In this document: piece by piece, positions 43-7,274 of the stretch
Position numbering within the stretch: position 1 is the first letter of the stretch
How the letters are laid out: every line of letters begins with the position of its first letter
Origin: a candidate division TA06 bacterium SM23_40
GTDB taxonomy: Bacteria; LJUI01; SM1-40
Length of the DNA stretch: 9,180 bases
Reading direction: 5' to 3'
Assembly: GCA_001303705.1 (NCBI GenBank)
Contig: LJUI01000100.1
Coordinates: 1 to 9,180 of the forward strand
The notes under the pieces: generated by a model
Seen by the model: only the letters and a program-made list of their open reading frames with translations
Told to the model about the DNA's origin: nothing
The model's database searches: none
Position numbers and translations under genes: made by a program

Positions 43-456
43 CTATGTGCGGTACACCCAGCGTACGAGCCGGTTCCCGCGGAATGGCCGAGCCCGGTAC
101 GTGAACCACCCCAGCACCACGCCAACAACGTCTGCTGCCAGATCAAGCCCCTCGAAGTATCGGCCCGGAACGAATTGCTGATGGAACTCGTCGAGGAGTC
201 CGAAGGCAAGCGCCGCCGCGACAACACCTGCAAGGCTCCTGGCCCGCCCGCTCCAGTGCATCCCCAAGGACCTGGCGAGGAGGAAGCCGAAGACTGCGTA
301 CTCGAATAGGTGTCCGAGTTTGTCGATCAGTGGGAATTCTAGTTGACGGGGTGTCGGGATGTCAGGAATCGATGAACCAATTACAATGAGGGCCGCCCAG
401 CCAACGACTGGCAGCCACCCGAAGATGATCGGTCTCCATCGCCGGTTTCCGAGCAT
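43..456 (-). CDS. VanZ-family small integral membrane protein
   Basis: This is a 137-residue membrane protein with about four hydrophobic segments (roughly residues 10-29, 47-63, 74-92 and 105-120). It carries the VanZ-family signature: a DK-x-x-H-x-x-x-Y stretch (D45, H49, Y53), then DE-x-HQ followed by a PGR turn (D89, E90, H92, Q93, P97-R99), then a charged and hydrophobic stretch with D106 and D109. The length suits a stand-alone VanZ-like protein. VanZ of Enterococcus gives low-level teicoplanin resistance, but most family members have no known role, so resistance should not be assumed. The ATG comes two bases after the ptsN-like stop codon and has no clear ribosome-binding site, which suggests translational coupling as the last visible gene of the PII-like/antiporter/EIIA operon. 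The family call is solid; the function is unknown. Confidence 0.88.
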   Translation of the reverse strand: MLGNRRWRPIIFGWLPVVGWAALIVIGSSIPDIPTPRQLEFPLIDKLGHLFEYAVFGFLLARSLGMHWSGRARSLAGVVAAALAFGLLDEFHQQFVPGRYFEGLDLAADVVGVVLGWFTYRARPFRGNRLVRWVYRT

Positions 457-458
457 GG

Positions 459-917
459 CTACATATCTGATTCCGAAGCGCGAAATAGCTCGAGTACATC
501 CTGAACCGTCTTCGCTTCGAGGAGCCCCTCCCGAAACGAGTCCCTGTTCAGCAGACGGGATATCCTCGCAAGCGCTCTCACGTGTGGGGAGATCACATCG
601 GGTGGACTGGCGAGGAAGAAGAAGATACGAACAGGTTCGCCATCGAGCGCCTGGAAATCGATGTCTCGGTCAGCGATGCCCAGGGAGGCACAGAGCCCCT
701 TCACCCCCTTCGCCTTACCGTGGGGGATGGCCACTCCTTTCCCGATCCCTGTCGACATCATACTCTCACGTTCCAGGGTCGCCTGGAGCAGGGCATCTCT
801 GTCCTCGACCACTCCAGAAGCGACCGCCAAGTCGATGAGTTCCTCGATGATCTCGTTCTTGGCCCTGCCCTCCAGCGGCAGCTTGATGGATTTCTCATTC
901 AAAATTTCCGCGATCAT
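459..917 (-). CDS. ptsN: PtsN-like PTS EIIA domain protein (EIIA-Ntr/Fru type)
   Basis: This is a single EIIA domain of the fructose/nitrogen PTS type, 152 residues from the chosen start. The phosphorylation site is visible as STGIGKGVAIPHGK with the active histidine at H66. The second conserved histidine segment, SPHVRALARISRLL (H112), is also present. No EIIB, EIIC or HPr domain is attached, so a regulatory phospho-carrier role is more likely than sugar uptake. In proteobacteria EIIA-Ntr binds potassium transport regulators such as TrkA and KdpD, so its place directly after a cation antiporter is suggestive. An upstream GTG at 923 is possible, but GGAGGG at 931-926 is only two bases from that GTG and eight bases from the ATG at 917, so I prefer 917. 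The gene overlaps the antiporter end by 23 bases. The symbol is by family; no other PTS genes are visible to prove the phosphorelay. Confidence 0.9.
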   Translation of the reverse strand: MIAEILNEKSIKLPLEGRAKNEIIEELIDLAVASGVVEDRDALLQATLERESMMSTGIGKGVAIPHGKAKGVKGLCASLGIADRDIDFQALDGEPVRIFFFLASPPDVISPHVRALARISRLLNRDSFREGLLEAKTVQDVLELFRASESDM

Positions 918-2157
918 CGACACTTCCCTCCATCTCTCCGCTCTCTATCGTTTTCGCGCGCGCCGCTGCCAGACTTCTCTTCAACAGAAATGGCGGAATG
1001 AGACTCGTCACCATCACCATCATGACAACGGACGAGAAGAGATTGAGATCGATCAGACCCTGCCTCAGACCGATACTGGCAATCACGAGGGCGATCTCGG
1101 CCCGCGGCATCATCGCCAACCCCACCTGTACGGCACTGAATCCAAACACCCTCCCCGCCACACCGCAGCCGATCAGTTTCGAAAGGACCGCCGCCACGAG
1201 ATAGAGTACGGCGAACAAGCCGACCGAGCCAAACGCCATCGGATCGAACGTCATACCTGTCGTGACGAAGAAGAGAGGAATGAATACCGCCGATCCGAGG
1301 AGCAACACCTTGCGCGACAGGTCGTGCACTGCCCGCGTCTCGCCGATGATCAGCCCGGCGAGGAAGGCGCCCGTAATCATCGCTACCCCGCTCAGGTCGG
1401 CGAGAATCGCAAAGACGAGCATGGTGAGGAGCCCGACGGTCAGCATCGGCTCGGACATCCTCAACAGGGGGGAGCGCTGCTGAAACCGCACTGCACCGGT
1501 GGTGAGAGCACGGGCCCGGCTCCGCTCCACAGACCACTGCTCGATCGACCTCGCGATCCGTGTACCGAGCGTGAGCGAGAGGACGAGGAACAGCGTCACA
1601 ATAACAAATGTACCCGCGGTCGGGCCGACCGCCAGCCCCTCTCGACAGCCGACGAGGATCGAGAGAATCAGGATCCCCAACACGTCATCGATCACCGCGG
1701 ACCCGATGATGAGCGCCCCGTACCGGTCGCGCAGCAACTCGAGCTCCCGGATCACCTCGACGCTGATCCCGACGCTCGTAGCCGTGAGCGTGGCGCCGAT
1801 GAAGAGCGATCCCAGGAGGCCGTAGCCAAACGCCATCCCCAACCCGAGCCCGAGGCCAAAGGGGACCACCACGCCCGACAGCGCCACCGCGAAGCTCGCA
1901 GCCCCGACCTTGAACAACTCCTTAATGTGTATCTCCAAACCTGCCGAGAAGAGGAGCAGCCAGATCCCGACGACCGCGAACGCGTGGAGGGCCTCGCTGA
2001 GCGACCGATGGAGTAGGTGCGAGTAGATACTGCCGAGAACCATGCCGGCCAGGAGTACTCCCACCGTACCGGCATGTCCTGCTCGCTTCGCCAGCTCCTC
2101 GCCGAGTTTGGCAAATGCCAAACAGAGCAGGAGTTCAACGGCGAGTTGAAGTTCCAT
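895..2157 (-). CDS. CPA2-family cation:proton (Na+ or K+/H+) antiporter
   Basis: This is a 420-residue polytopic membrane protein, about the usual size of an antiporter core, with hydrophobic segments along residues 1-395. Family marks include LLLFSAGLEI (68-76), TLTATSVGISVEVI (123-136, the unwound helix region of the NapA/KefB type), AVIDDVLG with paired aspartates D157-D158 in the ion-binding site, a lysine in SKLIG (K327), and PRAEIALVIA (351-360). In this superfamily a DD pair is usually linked with electrogenic exchange, but the ion cannot be read from the sequence. The protein lacks a C-terminal TrkA-N/RCK domain of the KefB/KefC type; the tail after residue 395 is short and charged. 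Regulation could instead come from the separate PII-like and EIIA proteins encoded on either side. The ATG has AGGA six bases upstream (2167-2164), 23 bases after the PII-like stop. Confidence 0.92.
   Translation of the reverse strand: MELQLAVELLLCLAFAKLGEELAKRAGHAGTVGVLLAGMVLGSIYSHLLHRSLSEALHAFAVVGIWLLLFSAGLEIHIKELFKVGAASFAVALSGVVVPFGLGLGLGMAFGYGLLGSLFIGATLTATSVGISVEVIRELELLRDRYGALIIGSAVIDDVLGILILSILVGCREGLAVGPTAGTFVIVTLFLVLSLTLGTRIARSIEQWSVERSRARALTTGAVRFQQRSPLLRMSEPMLTVGLLTMLVFAILADLSGVAMITGAFLAGLIIGETRAVHDLSRKVLLLGSAVFIPLFFVTTGMTFDPMAFGSVGLFAVLYLVAAVLSKLIGCGVAGRVFGFSAVQVGLAMMPRAEIALVIASIGLRQGLIDLNLFSSVVMMVMVTSLIPPFLLKRSLAAARAKTIESGEMEGSVDDRGNFE
926..931 (-). promoter_or_regulatory. Shine-Dalgarno site that decides the ptsN start
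   Basis: GGAGGG on the minus strand lies inside the 3' end of the antiporter gene. It is eight bases from the ATG at 917 but only two from the in-frame GTG at 923. This spacing favours the ATG and points to translation coupled to the end of the antiporter gene. Confidence 0.7.
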
Positions 2158-2180
2158 CTATGATCCTGCCCGAAGGCCGG

Positions 2181-2519
2181 TCAACGCTGTGGGACAATCC
2201 CCTTCGCTTTGCCCACAGAAACCATGAAGGCGATACCCGTGCCCGGATCGTCGAAGCTCCCGCAGATCCGTTCGATCTGCTCAATGAGATGATCGAAGAT
2301 GGAAGCATCCTCGATCACCGAGAAGATAGTCTTGTTGTATGGCCTGCCCACATCGATGAGATGCCGCAGGCCAGTAAAGACAGGAATCTCATGTGCGACG
2401 ATGCGCCCCATCCCGACGGTCTCGATGACGGTGCCGCCCGTGACTCCGTGTTCGATTAGAATCGTAAGGACCTCGTCCAGATGCTCTTCTCGGCCGAGCA
2501 CGATCACCAGAAGATGCAT
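2181..2519 (-). CDS. PII-like (GlnB-superfamily) signalling protein
   Basis: This 112-residue protein has the size and layout of a PII subunit. An N-terminal strand (LLVIVLG) leads to HLDEVLTILIEHGVTGGTVIE (13-33), then GMGR (36-39) with the T-loop region at about 40-60, a second strand-helix half (64-87), and GTGIAFMVSVGKAKGI (93-108), which aligns with the canonical GDGKIFV-x-P-x-E-x-x-x-I part. It lacks the uridylylated tyrosine of GlnB and the usual B-loop TGKIGDGK; DDPGTG stands in its place. It therefore belongs with divergent PII-like proteins and not with GlnB/GlnK. PII-like trimers bind nucleotides or small molecules and often regulate a neighbouring transporter. It is the first gene of the antiporter operon, with its own promoter and an AGGTGG ribosome-binding site six bases before the ATG. 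The ligand is unknown. Confidence 0.85.
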   Translation of the reverse strand: MHLLVIVLGREEHLDEVLTILIEHGVTGGTVIETVGMGRIVAHEIPVFTGLRHLIDVGRPYNKTIFSVIEDASIFDHLIEQIERICGSFDDPGTGIAFMVSVGKAKGIVPQR

Positions 2520-2577: not shown

Positions 2578-2606
2578 ACTATAAGGGCGTCACTCGTTGG
2601 TGTCAA
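2578..2606 (-). promoter_or_regulatory. Sigma70-type promoter of the PII-like/antiporter operon
   Basis: The minus strand carries a perfect -35 box TTGACA (2606-2601), a 17-bp spacer and TATAGT (2583-2578) as the -10 box (5 of 6 matches). This predicts a start near 2571. The site lies in the 121-bp gap between thiL and the PII-like gene. A 5-bp inverted repeat (ACGCC at 2573-2577 and GGCGT at 2586-2590, plus-strand reading) flanks the -10 box exactly and could be part of an operator. Confidence 0.72.
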
Positions 2607-5063: not shown

Positions 5064-5891
5064 TCACCCCCCGGAACGACATCTGCGTCCCTGTGCTGAC
5101 CAGACGGCGTCCACCTCCCGCCTCGCTGCCGCGAGTCTGCCATCGCGCAGTTGTAGATCCTCGAACCCCTTGAAGAACTCCAGCAGCACAAACTCCAGGG
5201 ATGGGCAGGGCCTGAGACAGGTGATCGCCGCATCGAGCTCCTCTGGGGTCGGCTCGAAATGAGCTCCATCGCCGGGCCGATACCCCGACAGATGGGCTAC
5301 GACCACGACATCGGCGAGCGCACCTCCCCATTTCGACAGCATATCGAGATCCCCATCGTGGGCAGCGAGCACGTGCCCGATATCGAACGAGACGGCAACT
5401 CCTGTCCCGCGGATTGCATCGCTGAACGCATCGAGCCGGGAGAAGATCCCCATCGGCGTGGTCTCTGCAGTCACGACCTCAACACCCTGTATCTGATCGC
5501 GAAGCCGCTGAAGGCTATCGCGTGCCGTACGAATCAGCCGATCGCTCGTCTCCTTCTGCCAGGCGAACACTCCCAGATCATCCCTCAGATGTACATTGAG
5601 GTACTCTGCTCCGATTGCACGGGCGAACTCAGCACACCGCAGAACGGCACTCTCCGCACCCTCCACGCACTCCTCCCACACCGAACCCAGATAGACAGAT
5701 TCCCATGGGCTCTGAACGCCGGCCGCCATCTCACACTCTTCGAGGGCGCGACAGATCTCATCAGCATCCTGTTCCAACATGCCCGGCTCGTCGACGGCGA
5801 TATCGACAAACCCGAACCCCAGCCCCCTTGCCACCGGGATCGCCGCGGCGATTTCCCCGTGCCCGGCATAAACAGGATACCCCACCCTCAT
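5064..5891 (-). CDS. Xylose isomerase-like TIM-barrel protein (sugar phosphate isomerase/epimerase family)
   Basis: This 275-residue protein has the pattern of the AP-endonuclease-2/xylose isomerase-like TIM barrel. Its N-terminus (MRVGYP) leads to GFGFVDIAVDEP (25-36), then LNVHL with H101, VTAETTP with E143, SFDIGH with D170 and H173, VVAHLSG with H200, then H211, and VLLEFF with E238. These H, E and D residues at strand ends are typical divalent-metal ligands of the family, so an isomerase, epimerase or dehydratase reaction on a sugar-like substrate is plausible. The true substrate is unknown. The ATG overlaps the CoaC stop as ATGA and is served by a very strong ribosome-binding site, GGAGGTGA (5903-5896), seven bases away counted from GGAGG. 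That gives tight coupling with CoaC. The final dozen residues are arginine- and glycine-rich and probably disordered. Confidence 0.87.
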   Translation of the reverse strand: MRVGYPVYAGHGEIAAAIPVARGLGFGFVDIAVDEPGMLEQDADEICRALEECEMAAGVQSPWESVYLGSVWEECVEGAESAVLRCAEFARAIGAEYLNVHLRDDLGVFAWQKETSDRLIRTARDSLQRLRDQIQGVEVVTAETTPMGIFSRLDAFSDAIRGTGVAVSFDIGHVLAAHDGDLDMLSKWGGALADVVVVAHLSGYRPGDGAHFEPTPEELDAAITCLRPCPSLEFVLLEFFKGFEDLQLRDGRLAAARREVDAVWSAQGRRCRSGG

Positions 5892-6445
5892 TCGGTCACC
5901 TCCCCGGAGATGGCAGCCTCGATCTCCGCGATGATGGCCGTCAGTTTCGCCAAACGTCCCACTCCACGATCGCCCGATGCGAGAATACCCTCCTCCGGCT
6001 CCACGAACCGGTATCCGAGCGCACGAAGCTTCTCGATGTTCTGCTGAACGATCGGATTGCTGTACATATTCGCGTTCATCGCAGGGGCGAGCACAACCGG
6101 ACTCTCTGTCGCCATGACGAGTGTGCTGAGAAGATCATCCGCGATCCCCGCGGCAATCTTGCCGATAATGTTAGCCGTTGCCGGAGCTATCACCAATATG
6201 TGGGCCCACTTCGCGAGATCGATGTGCGGCAGTGGGCCCACGGGACGCGCCGTAAACAGGTCGACGGCCACGCTACGCCCGGAGAGTGTTTGGAAGGTGA
6301 GCGGTGTCACGAACTCGGTTGCGTGCTGGGTCATGACTACCTGCACTGCAGCGCCACGCTCCATCAGCCGCCGTATGAGCGAGCACGCCTTGAACGCAGC
6401 AATACCTCCTGTGACACCGAGAACGATCTGTTTCCCATCGAGCAT
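5888..6445 (-). CDS. coaC: Phosphopantothenoylcysteine decarboxylase (stand-alone CoaC)
   Basis: CoaC is an FMN flavoprotein that decarboxylates phosphopantothenoylcysteine to phosphopantetheine in coenzyme A synthesis. The protein (185 residues from this start) is the complete flavoprotein half and no more. It shows LGVTGGIAAFKA near the N-terminus, the catalytic histidine in LPHIDLAKWA (H74), the APATANIIGKIAAGIADDLLST stretch, and the APAMN substrate clamp followed by MYSNP. In the flexible substrate-recognition flap the family cysteine of ACGDxGxGR is a serine (ILASGDRGVGR, S157). An ATG two codons upstream (6451) is also open, but GTGGGG lies one base from it and seven from 6445, and the family usually begins M-L-x-G-K, so I chose 6445. 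It follows CoaB after about 100 bases and is overlapped by the TIM-barrel gene. Confidence 0.93.
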   Translation of the reverse strand: MLDGKQIVLGVTGGIAAFKACSLIRRLMERGAAVQVVMTQHATEFVTPLTFQTLSGRSVAVDLFTARPVGPLPHIDLAKWAHILVIAPATANIIGKIAAGIADDLLSTLVMATESPVVLAPAMNANMYSNPIVQQNIEKLRALGYRFVEPEEGILASGDRGVGRLAKLTAIIAEIEAAISGEVTE

Positions 6446-6548
6446 GGCCATACCCCACGTGTACCTCTACCGTCGTCGACGGCCATGGCTCACAACCACG
6501 GCCTTCATGCAGACGCTCCCGATATCCCCGTTCAGCACCTCTACCTCA

Positions 6549-7274
6549 TCACATCTCGCGCATCGGCTCCTGGGTCTCAGCGTCCTTAGCTCTCTCGTGG
6601 ACAAGTGCGGCAACTTTGTCGAGTATGATCCTGGTAATCTCGCCCTTCGTCCGTGCGGTCGCCTGTACCGTCCCATCACTACCTATGATGTGACCGACAT
6701 GGCCCTCGGCCATGATCTCAGTCAAATCATTGGCGACCACGACGTCAGCATCAGCTGAATCCTTAAGAGCAACCGCACTCGCAATAAGCTCTTCGTATGG
6801 GACTCCCACCTCCAGCTTAAACGCCACGAGGACGGCATCGCGGGCCCTCTCTCTGATGCGTCCTATGATCTTGACCGTGGGAACGAGACGAACAGTCCAG
6901 TCTTCTCTGCCTGACTTTGCCTTGCCAGGCGACCGCTCCGCGGGGACGTAATCGAGGACGGCCATGGCATGGATGATCGCATCAAAGTGCCCCCCTCTCA
7001 GCTCTCGCTCCAAAGCGGCGGCTGCATCGTCCACGGTGTCGACCTCGATAAGGTGAAGCCGCCGATGATGCCCGTTGCCGGGCGCACCGGCGGCTGGTAT
7101 TTCACTCCGACGCCCGTAGATGAACGTTACATCGGCGCCACGGCGCAATGCCTCCTCGGCGATCATCGCGCCGAGCTTTCCGCTCGAGGTGTTCGAAATA
7201 TACCGGATTGCATCGATCGGAGCACGCGTCGGCCCCGATGTCATCAGGAGGCGCTTCCCCGACAGATCACTCAT
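6549..7274 (-). CDS. coaB: Phosphopantothenate--cysteine ligase (stand-alone CoaB)
   Basis: CoaB joins cysteine to 4'-phosphopantothenate using a nucleoside triphosphate. The 241-residue protein has TSGPTRAPIDAIRYISNTSS (12-31) followed by GKLG, AIIHAMAVLDYVP (99-111), the K-rich loop PGKAKSG (116-122), PTVKIIGRI (132-140), LVAFKLEVGV (149-158) and ADVVVANDLTEI (176-187). The wording HAMAVLDY (usual CoaBC: AAAVADY), FKL instead of the GFAAET type, and ANDLTEI match the monofunctional CoaB known from streptococci and enterococci better than the C-terminal half of fused CoaBC. The ATG has GAGGA nine bases upstream. It is the first gene of its operon, behind a promoter and a leader with a hairpin. 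The C-terminal 15 residues are charged and may be disordered. A complete, intact enzyme is expected. Confidence 0.93.
   Translation of the reverse strand: MSDLSGKRLLMTSGPTRAPIDAIRYISNTSSGKLGAMIAEEALRRGADVTFIYGRRSEIPAAGAPGNGHHRRLHLIEVDTVDDAAAALERELRGGHFDAIIHAMAVLDYVPAERSPGKAKSGREDWTVRLVPTVKIIGRIRERARDAVLVAFKLEVGVPYEELIASAVALKDSADADVVVANDLTEIMAEGHVGHIIGSDGTVQATARTKGEITRIILDKVAALVHERAKDAETQEPMREM

Follow-up and report, generated by a model that had tools for sequence, protein, structure and literature searches.

PII and EIIA proteins are among the best-known families in metabolic signalling, and transporter control is documented for both. At the locus studied here, a gene of each kind adjoins a cation/proton antiporter gene, which raises the question of whether one antiporter is placed under the control of both. 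The 9,180-bp window (the whole stretch of DNA that was analysed) is the complete contig C53 of a draft genome of 2.88 Mb in 189 contigs, about 90% complete; no close relative of this genome was found within the genome set searched. A preliminary description of the sequence had reported three tightly packed genes. This was confirmed: all three ORFs are present on the minus strand, with a 23-nt gap between the PII-like and antiporter genes and, given an ATG start at 917, a 23-nt overlap between the antiporter and EIIA genes. The genes and the upstream site are as follows:

43..456, minus strand: VanZ-like membrane protein (Pfam VanZ, E=2.3e-11)
459..917, minus strand, ATG start: single-domain EIIA (Pfam PTS_EIIA_2, E=6.4e-35; Shine-Dalgarno GGAGGG)
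895..2157, minus strand: NapA-like CPA2 monovalent cation/proton antiporter, 420 aa (Pfam Na_H_Exchanger; Thermus NapA, E=1.2e-39)
2181..2519, minus strand: PII-like protein of an uncharacterised PII clade, 112 aa (Pfam P-II, 25.0 bits; AF2 model; tree)
2578..2606, minus strand: putative sigma-70-like promoter TTGACA-17-TATAGT in the thiL/PII intergenic region, by consensus matching only (11/12 matches)

The promoter-like site is 58 nt upstream of the start codon of PII. The scan that identified it, which used consensus matching only, returned 4 sites over 4.6 kb where 1.1 were expected. A single terminator-like match was found in the region; it falls inside the antiporter gene and is below shuffle expectation. 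Because a promoter-like site lies upstream and no terminator exceeds expectation, the sequence suggests that a single transcript beginning at the PII gene is likely. The VanZ-like gene, which starts 2 nt beyond the EIIA stop codon, is probably the fourth gene of that transcript. A VanZ-like gene also lies behind the EIIA-PII pair of locus L221 (4888-5277; E=4.3e-14), and among the loci examined no further VanZ relatives occur near the cassette beyond these two. No RNA elements or tRNAs were found in the window. Elsewhere in it, CoaC and CoaB are encoded by separate genes (5888-6451 and 6549-7274); CoaBC is usually one fused gene.

The preliminary description had called the middle gene a CPA2 antiporter without an RCK domain of its own, and our analysis agrees. 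Pfam Na_H_Exchanger covers residues 13-392 (E=3.9e-49) and no other domain is present. Thermus NapA is the best solved relative, and alignment with it locates the ion site:

1684..1689, minus strand: codons of D157-D158, corresponding to the ion-binding D156/D157 of Thermus NapA
1177..1179, minus strand: codon of K327, corresponding to K305 of Thermus NapA

The protein is therefore of the CPA2/NapA type by its Na_H_Exchanger domain and its Asp-Asp plus Lys ion site. Its score against the NCBIfam CPA2 model TIGR00932 was 148.3 bits, below the cut-off of 238.3, with a match spanning residues 15-305. By analogy with NapA, it may be an electrogenic Na+/H+ exchanger, with the ion assigned on the same grounds.

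The third gene was likewise correctly described as a single-domain EIIA with its phospho-histidine (120.7 bits). Its ORF spans 459-923 and encodes 154 aa if begun at the GTG at 923; the ATG at 917 is favoured from the sequence because of the GGAGGG Shine-Dalgarno. Two active-site histidines, numbered from 923, are present:

720..722, minus strand: phospho-acceptor H68, in AIPHG aligned with IPHGR of solved EIIA-Ntr chains
582..584, minus strand: second active-site histidine H114, by alignment

The further label of EIIA-Ntr proved too loose. The protein scored only 67.7 bits against TIGR01419 (PtsN; cut-off 138.7), and it is nearer to the fructose-type EIIA model (99.7 bits against a cut-off of 103.5). 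The genome's single HPr gene and its single full EI gene are neighbours on contig C101, and the EI frame of about 591 aa is too short for a PtsP with a GAF domain. Six EIIA_2 matches were found in the genome, including the window gene and a part-gene on contig C115. PTS_EIIC (PF02378) is absent from the window's genome and from all carrier genomes searched (12/12), while 7/14 control genomes were positive; mannose-type EIIC lay outside this search. A sugar-PTS origin of EIIA was rejected on this basis. Since EI and HPr are present without PTS_EIIC, EIIA in the carrier genomes is most simply read as a regulatory output, and the EI and HPr genes make PTS phosphorylation a plausible input to it.

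The first gene had been described as encoding a divergent PII-like protein, and this stands, with a Pfam P-II score exactly at the cut-off of 25. Its AF2 model (pLDDT 83.7, pTM 0.72) has the ferredoxin-like beta-alpha-beta-beta-alpha-beta fold with PII-type topology; the T-loop is of low confidence (pLDDT about 57-72). The PDB matches listed for the model are PII or PII-like proteins (Foldseek E 2.7e-5), and the closest folds are PotN (Z 11.3) and SbtB (Z 11.1). Pfam P-II matched 20/23 members of its clade at E <= 1. When 137 clade members and 17 canonical PIIs were placed in one tree, the two groups split at 100/100 support, and this branch places the window PII outside the canonical GlnB/GlnK clade. 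No dedicated Pfam or NCBIfam model exists for the clade, and PDB sequences matched its profile at E 3.6e-4 or worse, the matches being canonical PII. The only other Pfam P-II match in the window's genome is a fused copy.

Alignment with canonical PII shows where the clade has diverged. The ATP/2-oxoglutarate residues Q39, T83, K90, R101 and R103, each found in 88-100% of canonical PIIs, are replaced in the window PII and most of the clade, which has also lost the end of the canonical C-terminal stretch. The clade retains glycines at positions 87/89 and lysine at the position of K58. One region is distinctive:

2322..2414, minus strand: altered T-loop region, PII residues 36-66, with the motif P-x-F-x-G-L-R ... 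RPYNKTIF, from alignments

RPYNKTIF is invariant across 42 aligned sequences (alignment A3), and the equivalent canonical stretch differs. With the canonical residues lost, the nucleotide sensing proposed in the preliminary description is unproven. It is possible that the ligand is c-di-AMP or another adenine nucleotide. DarA/PstA is a c-di-AMP receptor of the PII superfamily; the clade shares its PII fold, and a few members give weak profile matches (one to CdAMP_rec, three to NCBIfam DarA). In contrast, the window PII has no CdAMP_rec match at E <= 1. A DAC cyclase is present in the window's genome. The occurrence of the cyclase across genomes was considered as an indication of c-di-AMP, but it was uninformative, being found in 15/16 genomes and in 11/14 controls too.

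We then asked how often these partners occur together. Among 386 genomes sampled for taxonomic spread, 58 carried the PII clade, at 64 loci. Nearly half of these loci (31/64) have both an antiporter and an EIIA gene on the same strand, no further than 1.5 kb away; the others have the antiporter only (9/64), EIIA only (10/64) or neither (14/64). Of the canonical PIIs in this genome set, 0/19 had an antiporter or EIIA neighbour, in control loci whose 1.5-kb flanks cover immediate neighbours only. Fisher tests, one per neighbour type and ignoring shared ancestry, gave P = 3.6e-7 and 2.7e-7. This control, together with recurrence in several gene orders, led us to reject a chance neighbourhood. In Bacillota, a CPA2 antiporter lies directly beside PII, upstream or downstream, in 54/55 tree rows. 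As no EIIA adjoins these pairs, the arrangement does not require one; EIIA joins PII and antiporter in lineages outside Bacillota. One Tissierellia contig (L030, 431-5348) carries three tandem antiporter-PII pairs. A PII subgroup without ion-transport neighbours (L015, L160, L161 and L170, in genomes G003, G083, G084 and G081) lies beside a 2-amino-3-ketobutyrate CoA ligase-like gene, near an acyl-CoA synthetase.

The preliminary description had singled out the pairing of one antiporter with regulators of both kinds, and this arrangement proved to be conserved, recurring in many lineages, in several orders and as fusions. The particular order was not: PII-antiporter-EIIA was not found elsewhere, so that among the clade loci examined gene content is conserved and gene order is not. 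The arrangements, in transcription order, are:

PII-antiporter-EIIA: the window
EIIA-antiporter-PII: L166, L213-L215, L235, L239, L243, L245
EIIA-PII-antiporter: L162, L222, L224, L227, L229, L232, L233, L238
antiporter-EIIA-PII: L014, L017, L156, L158, L219, L220
antiporter, then an EIIA-PII fusion: L016, L163, L164, L231, L240, L241, L246, L249
EIIA-PII fusion, antiporter, antiporter, EIIA-PII fusion: L167, L168

A single antiporter-EIIA fusion of 601 aa was also found (L121). In all four genomes of one phylum (L017, L156-L158), a protein of 1,190-1,210 aa, probably a sensor histidine kinase, is encoded directly after two antiporters, EIIA and PII. The window's own genome appears to hold a fused form as well. 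Contig C48 ends inside an EIIA gene adjoining a CPA2 antiporter of a subfamily other than the window antiporter's, and contig C115 ends inside an EIIA-PII fusion. Because these ends share 100 nt with a single mismatch, the two contigs most likely form one locus with a second antiporter and an EIIA-PII fusion. Such natural EIIA-PII fusions suggest that EIIA and PII act as one unit.

The unit is not confined to CPA2 antiporters. EIIA and PII lie directly before the genes of the unrelated, multi-subunit Mrp antiporter in three lineages (L201, L202, L208), and PII alone does so in L012. PII alone was also observed just ahead of genes for F-type ATP synthase (L023/L199, L234) and V-type ATPase (L025, L026). 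The common denominator of the clade's neighbours is H+/Na+ movement and not one protein family; among the 14/64 loci with neither neighbour, only some adjoin Mrp or ATPase genes.

Several known systems resemble parts of this cassette. In E. coli, the K+/H+ antiporter YcgO (CvrA) is bound and inhibited by unphosphorylated PtsN, and phosphorylation weakens the contact (PMC11808508). The cassette, known here from its genes, would share with this system an EIIA-type protein that binds a cation/proton antiporter directly and controls it according to its own phosphorylation state. In contrast, YcgO is a CPA1 protein with a cytoplasmic CorC/RCK region, whereas the window antiporter has no cytoplasmic domain; PtsN has no PII partner, and it uses PtsP/NPr where the window's genome encodes an EI of standard length and a single HPr. 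SbtB-SbtA, in which the T-loop of SbtB inserts into SbtA (PMC8352866), and GlnK-AmtB likewise pair a small PII-fold protein with a membrane transporter encoded with it. They differ in transporter family and nucleotide sites, lack an EIIA and have T-loops of unrelated sequence. UmpAB (DUF1538) is a two-component Na+(Li+,K+)/H+ antiporter, described in a paper that makes no mention of PII (PMC5484666). At L087-L095 (Desulfotignum, Desulfopila, Roseospirillum, Pirellulales), a different PII subfamily directly follows a membrane-protein pair read by eye as DUF1538. A PII-family gene adjoins a putative Na+/H+ antiporter there too, but this PII subfamily is separate (<= 25.5 bits to the clade profile), the antiporter is unrelated, and no EIIA was detected beside these loci.

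Based on these observations, the window probably contains an operon of regulated ion transport, with the antiporter under the control of EIIA and the PII-like protein. Because the linkage recurs across lineages, orders and fusions, joint control is strongly supported as the best reading, although we reach it by inference. We predict that the antiporter would exchange Na+ (or K+) for H+ at the inner membrane. EIIA, phosphorylated or not through the genome's only EI/HPr relay, would report the PEP/energy state, and the unphosphorylated form would most likely set antiporter activity, the direction of control being a prediction. The PII-like protein, probably a trimer, may use its altered T-loop to dock on the antiporter from the cytoplasmic side and would work with EIIA as one unit. 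Some observations count against this model. A trimeric PII and a dimeric NapA-type antiporter differ in symmetry, and the window antiporter lacks the cytoplasmic region that PtsN uses on YcgO. Further, the nearest relatives of the window PII in the tree (L022, L200, L023, L211) have neither neighbour, and the Bacillota pairs are without an adjacent EIIA.

These last pairs bear on a tentative variant, compatible with joint control, in which the PII-like protein is the sole direct regulator of the antiporter and EIIA is its phosphorylation-dependent partner, so that both form one integrated input. EIIA-PII fusions and EIIA-PII pairs without an antiporter also favour this variant. However, the antiporter-EIIA fusion and the PtsN-YcgO precedent (PMC11808508) indicate that EIIA can act directly, and we regard the variant as possible but the less probable form of the model.

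It is unlikely that the shared transcript reflects only a common ion-homeostasis response, with EIIA and PII acting on other targets such as transporters, kinases or enzymes. That reading draws on the 10/64 loci with EIIA and PII but no antiporter and the 14/64 with neither neighbour, on the PII genes that precede F-/V-ATPase and metabolic genes, and on the EIIA domains fused to APC-type permeases in carrier genomes. Yet the cassette has been re-assembled repeatedly in differing orders, EIIA-PII fusions stand beside antiporters, an antiporter is itself fused to EIIA, and CPA2 has been swapped for the unrelated Mrp antiporter with EIIA and PII kept. That the PII-like protein is a conventional PII reporting nitrogen status, in an incidental neighbourhood, is very improbable: it is the sole Pfam P-II match in the genome besides the fused copy, but its lost canonical residues, its place in the tree and its neighbours (neither amtB nor glnA lies near it in the window, and no canonical PII shares its neighbours) led us to reject this identity.

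Joint control of the antiporter may be one instance of something wider, and we give about even chances to a phylum-spanning two-input controller. Here a regulatory EIIA would be coupled or fused to a PII clade whose ligand site is new, and the pair would have been transferred among H+/Na+ machines that are unrelated to one another (CPA2 of several subfamilies, Mrp and perhaps F-/V-type ATPases). Energy status, read through the phospho-relay, and a second signal would then together govern how ions and protons circulate. Searches of the open-licence PMC literature turned up no account of PII paired with CPA2 antiporters and none of an EIIA-PII unit, an absence that carries little weight. There is a fair chance that this is a distinct two-input module, and the data point to a salt and pH balance switch that has not been described before. 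If true, an EIIA-PII unit acting on antiporters would tie carbon/energy signalling to Na+/H+ homeostasis in many little-studied bacteria, and the link would reach cultured Bacillota such as Tissierella and Anaerovirgula, which carry the PII plus antiporter form. The cassette further offers a way into the function of a PII clade without a Pfam/NCBIfam model or close PDB match, and it suggests why bacteria without detectable PTS_EIIC retain EI, HPr and several EIIAs.

Other EIIA domains were observed beside or within transporters. APC-like amino-acid permeases (type assigned by eye) with a C-terminal EIIA, about 615-635 aa where complete, are encoded at L117 (G000:C14) and L124-L127, in genomes without detectable PTS_EIIC, including the window's own. 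At L133 (1030-3955), a candidate SLC12-like cation-chloride cotransporter (723 aa, read by eye) directly follows an EIIA with an N-terminal helix-turn-helix, and a second EIIA is encoded close by.
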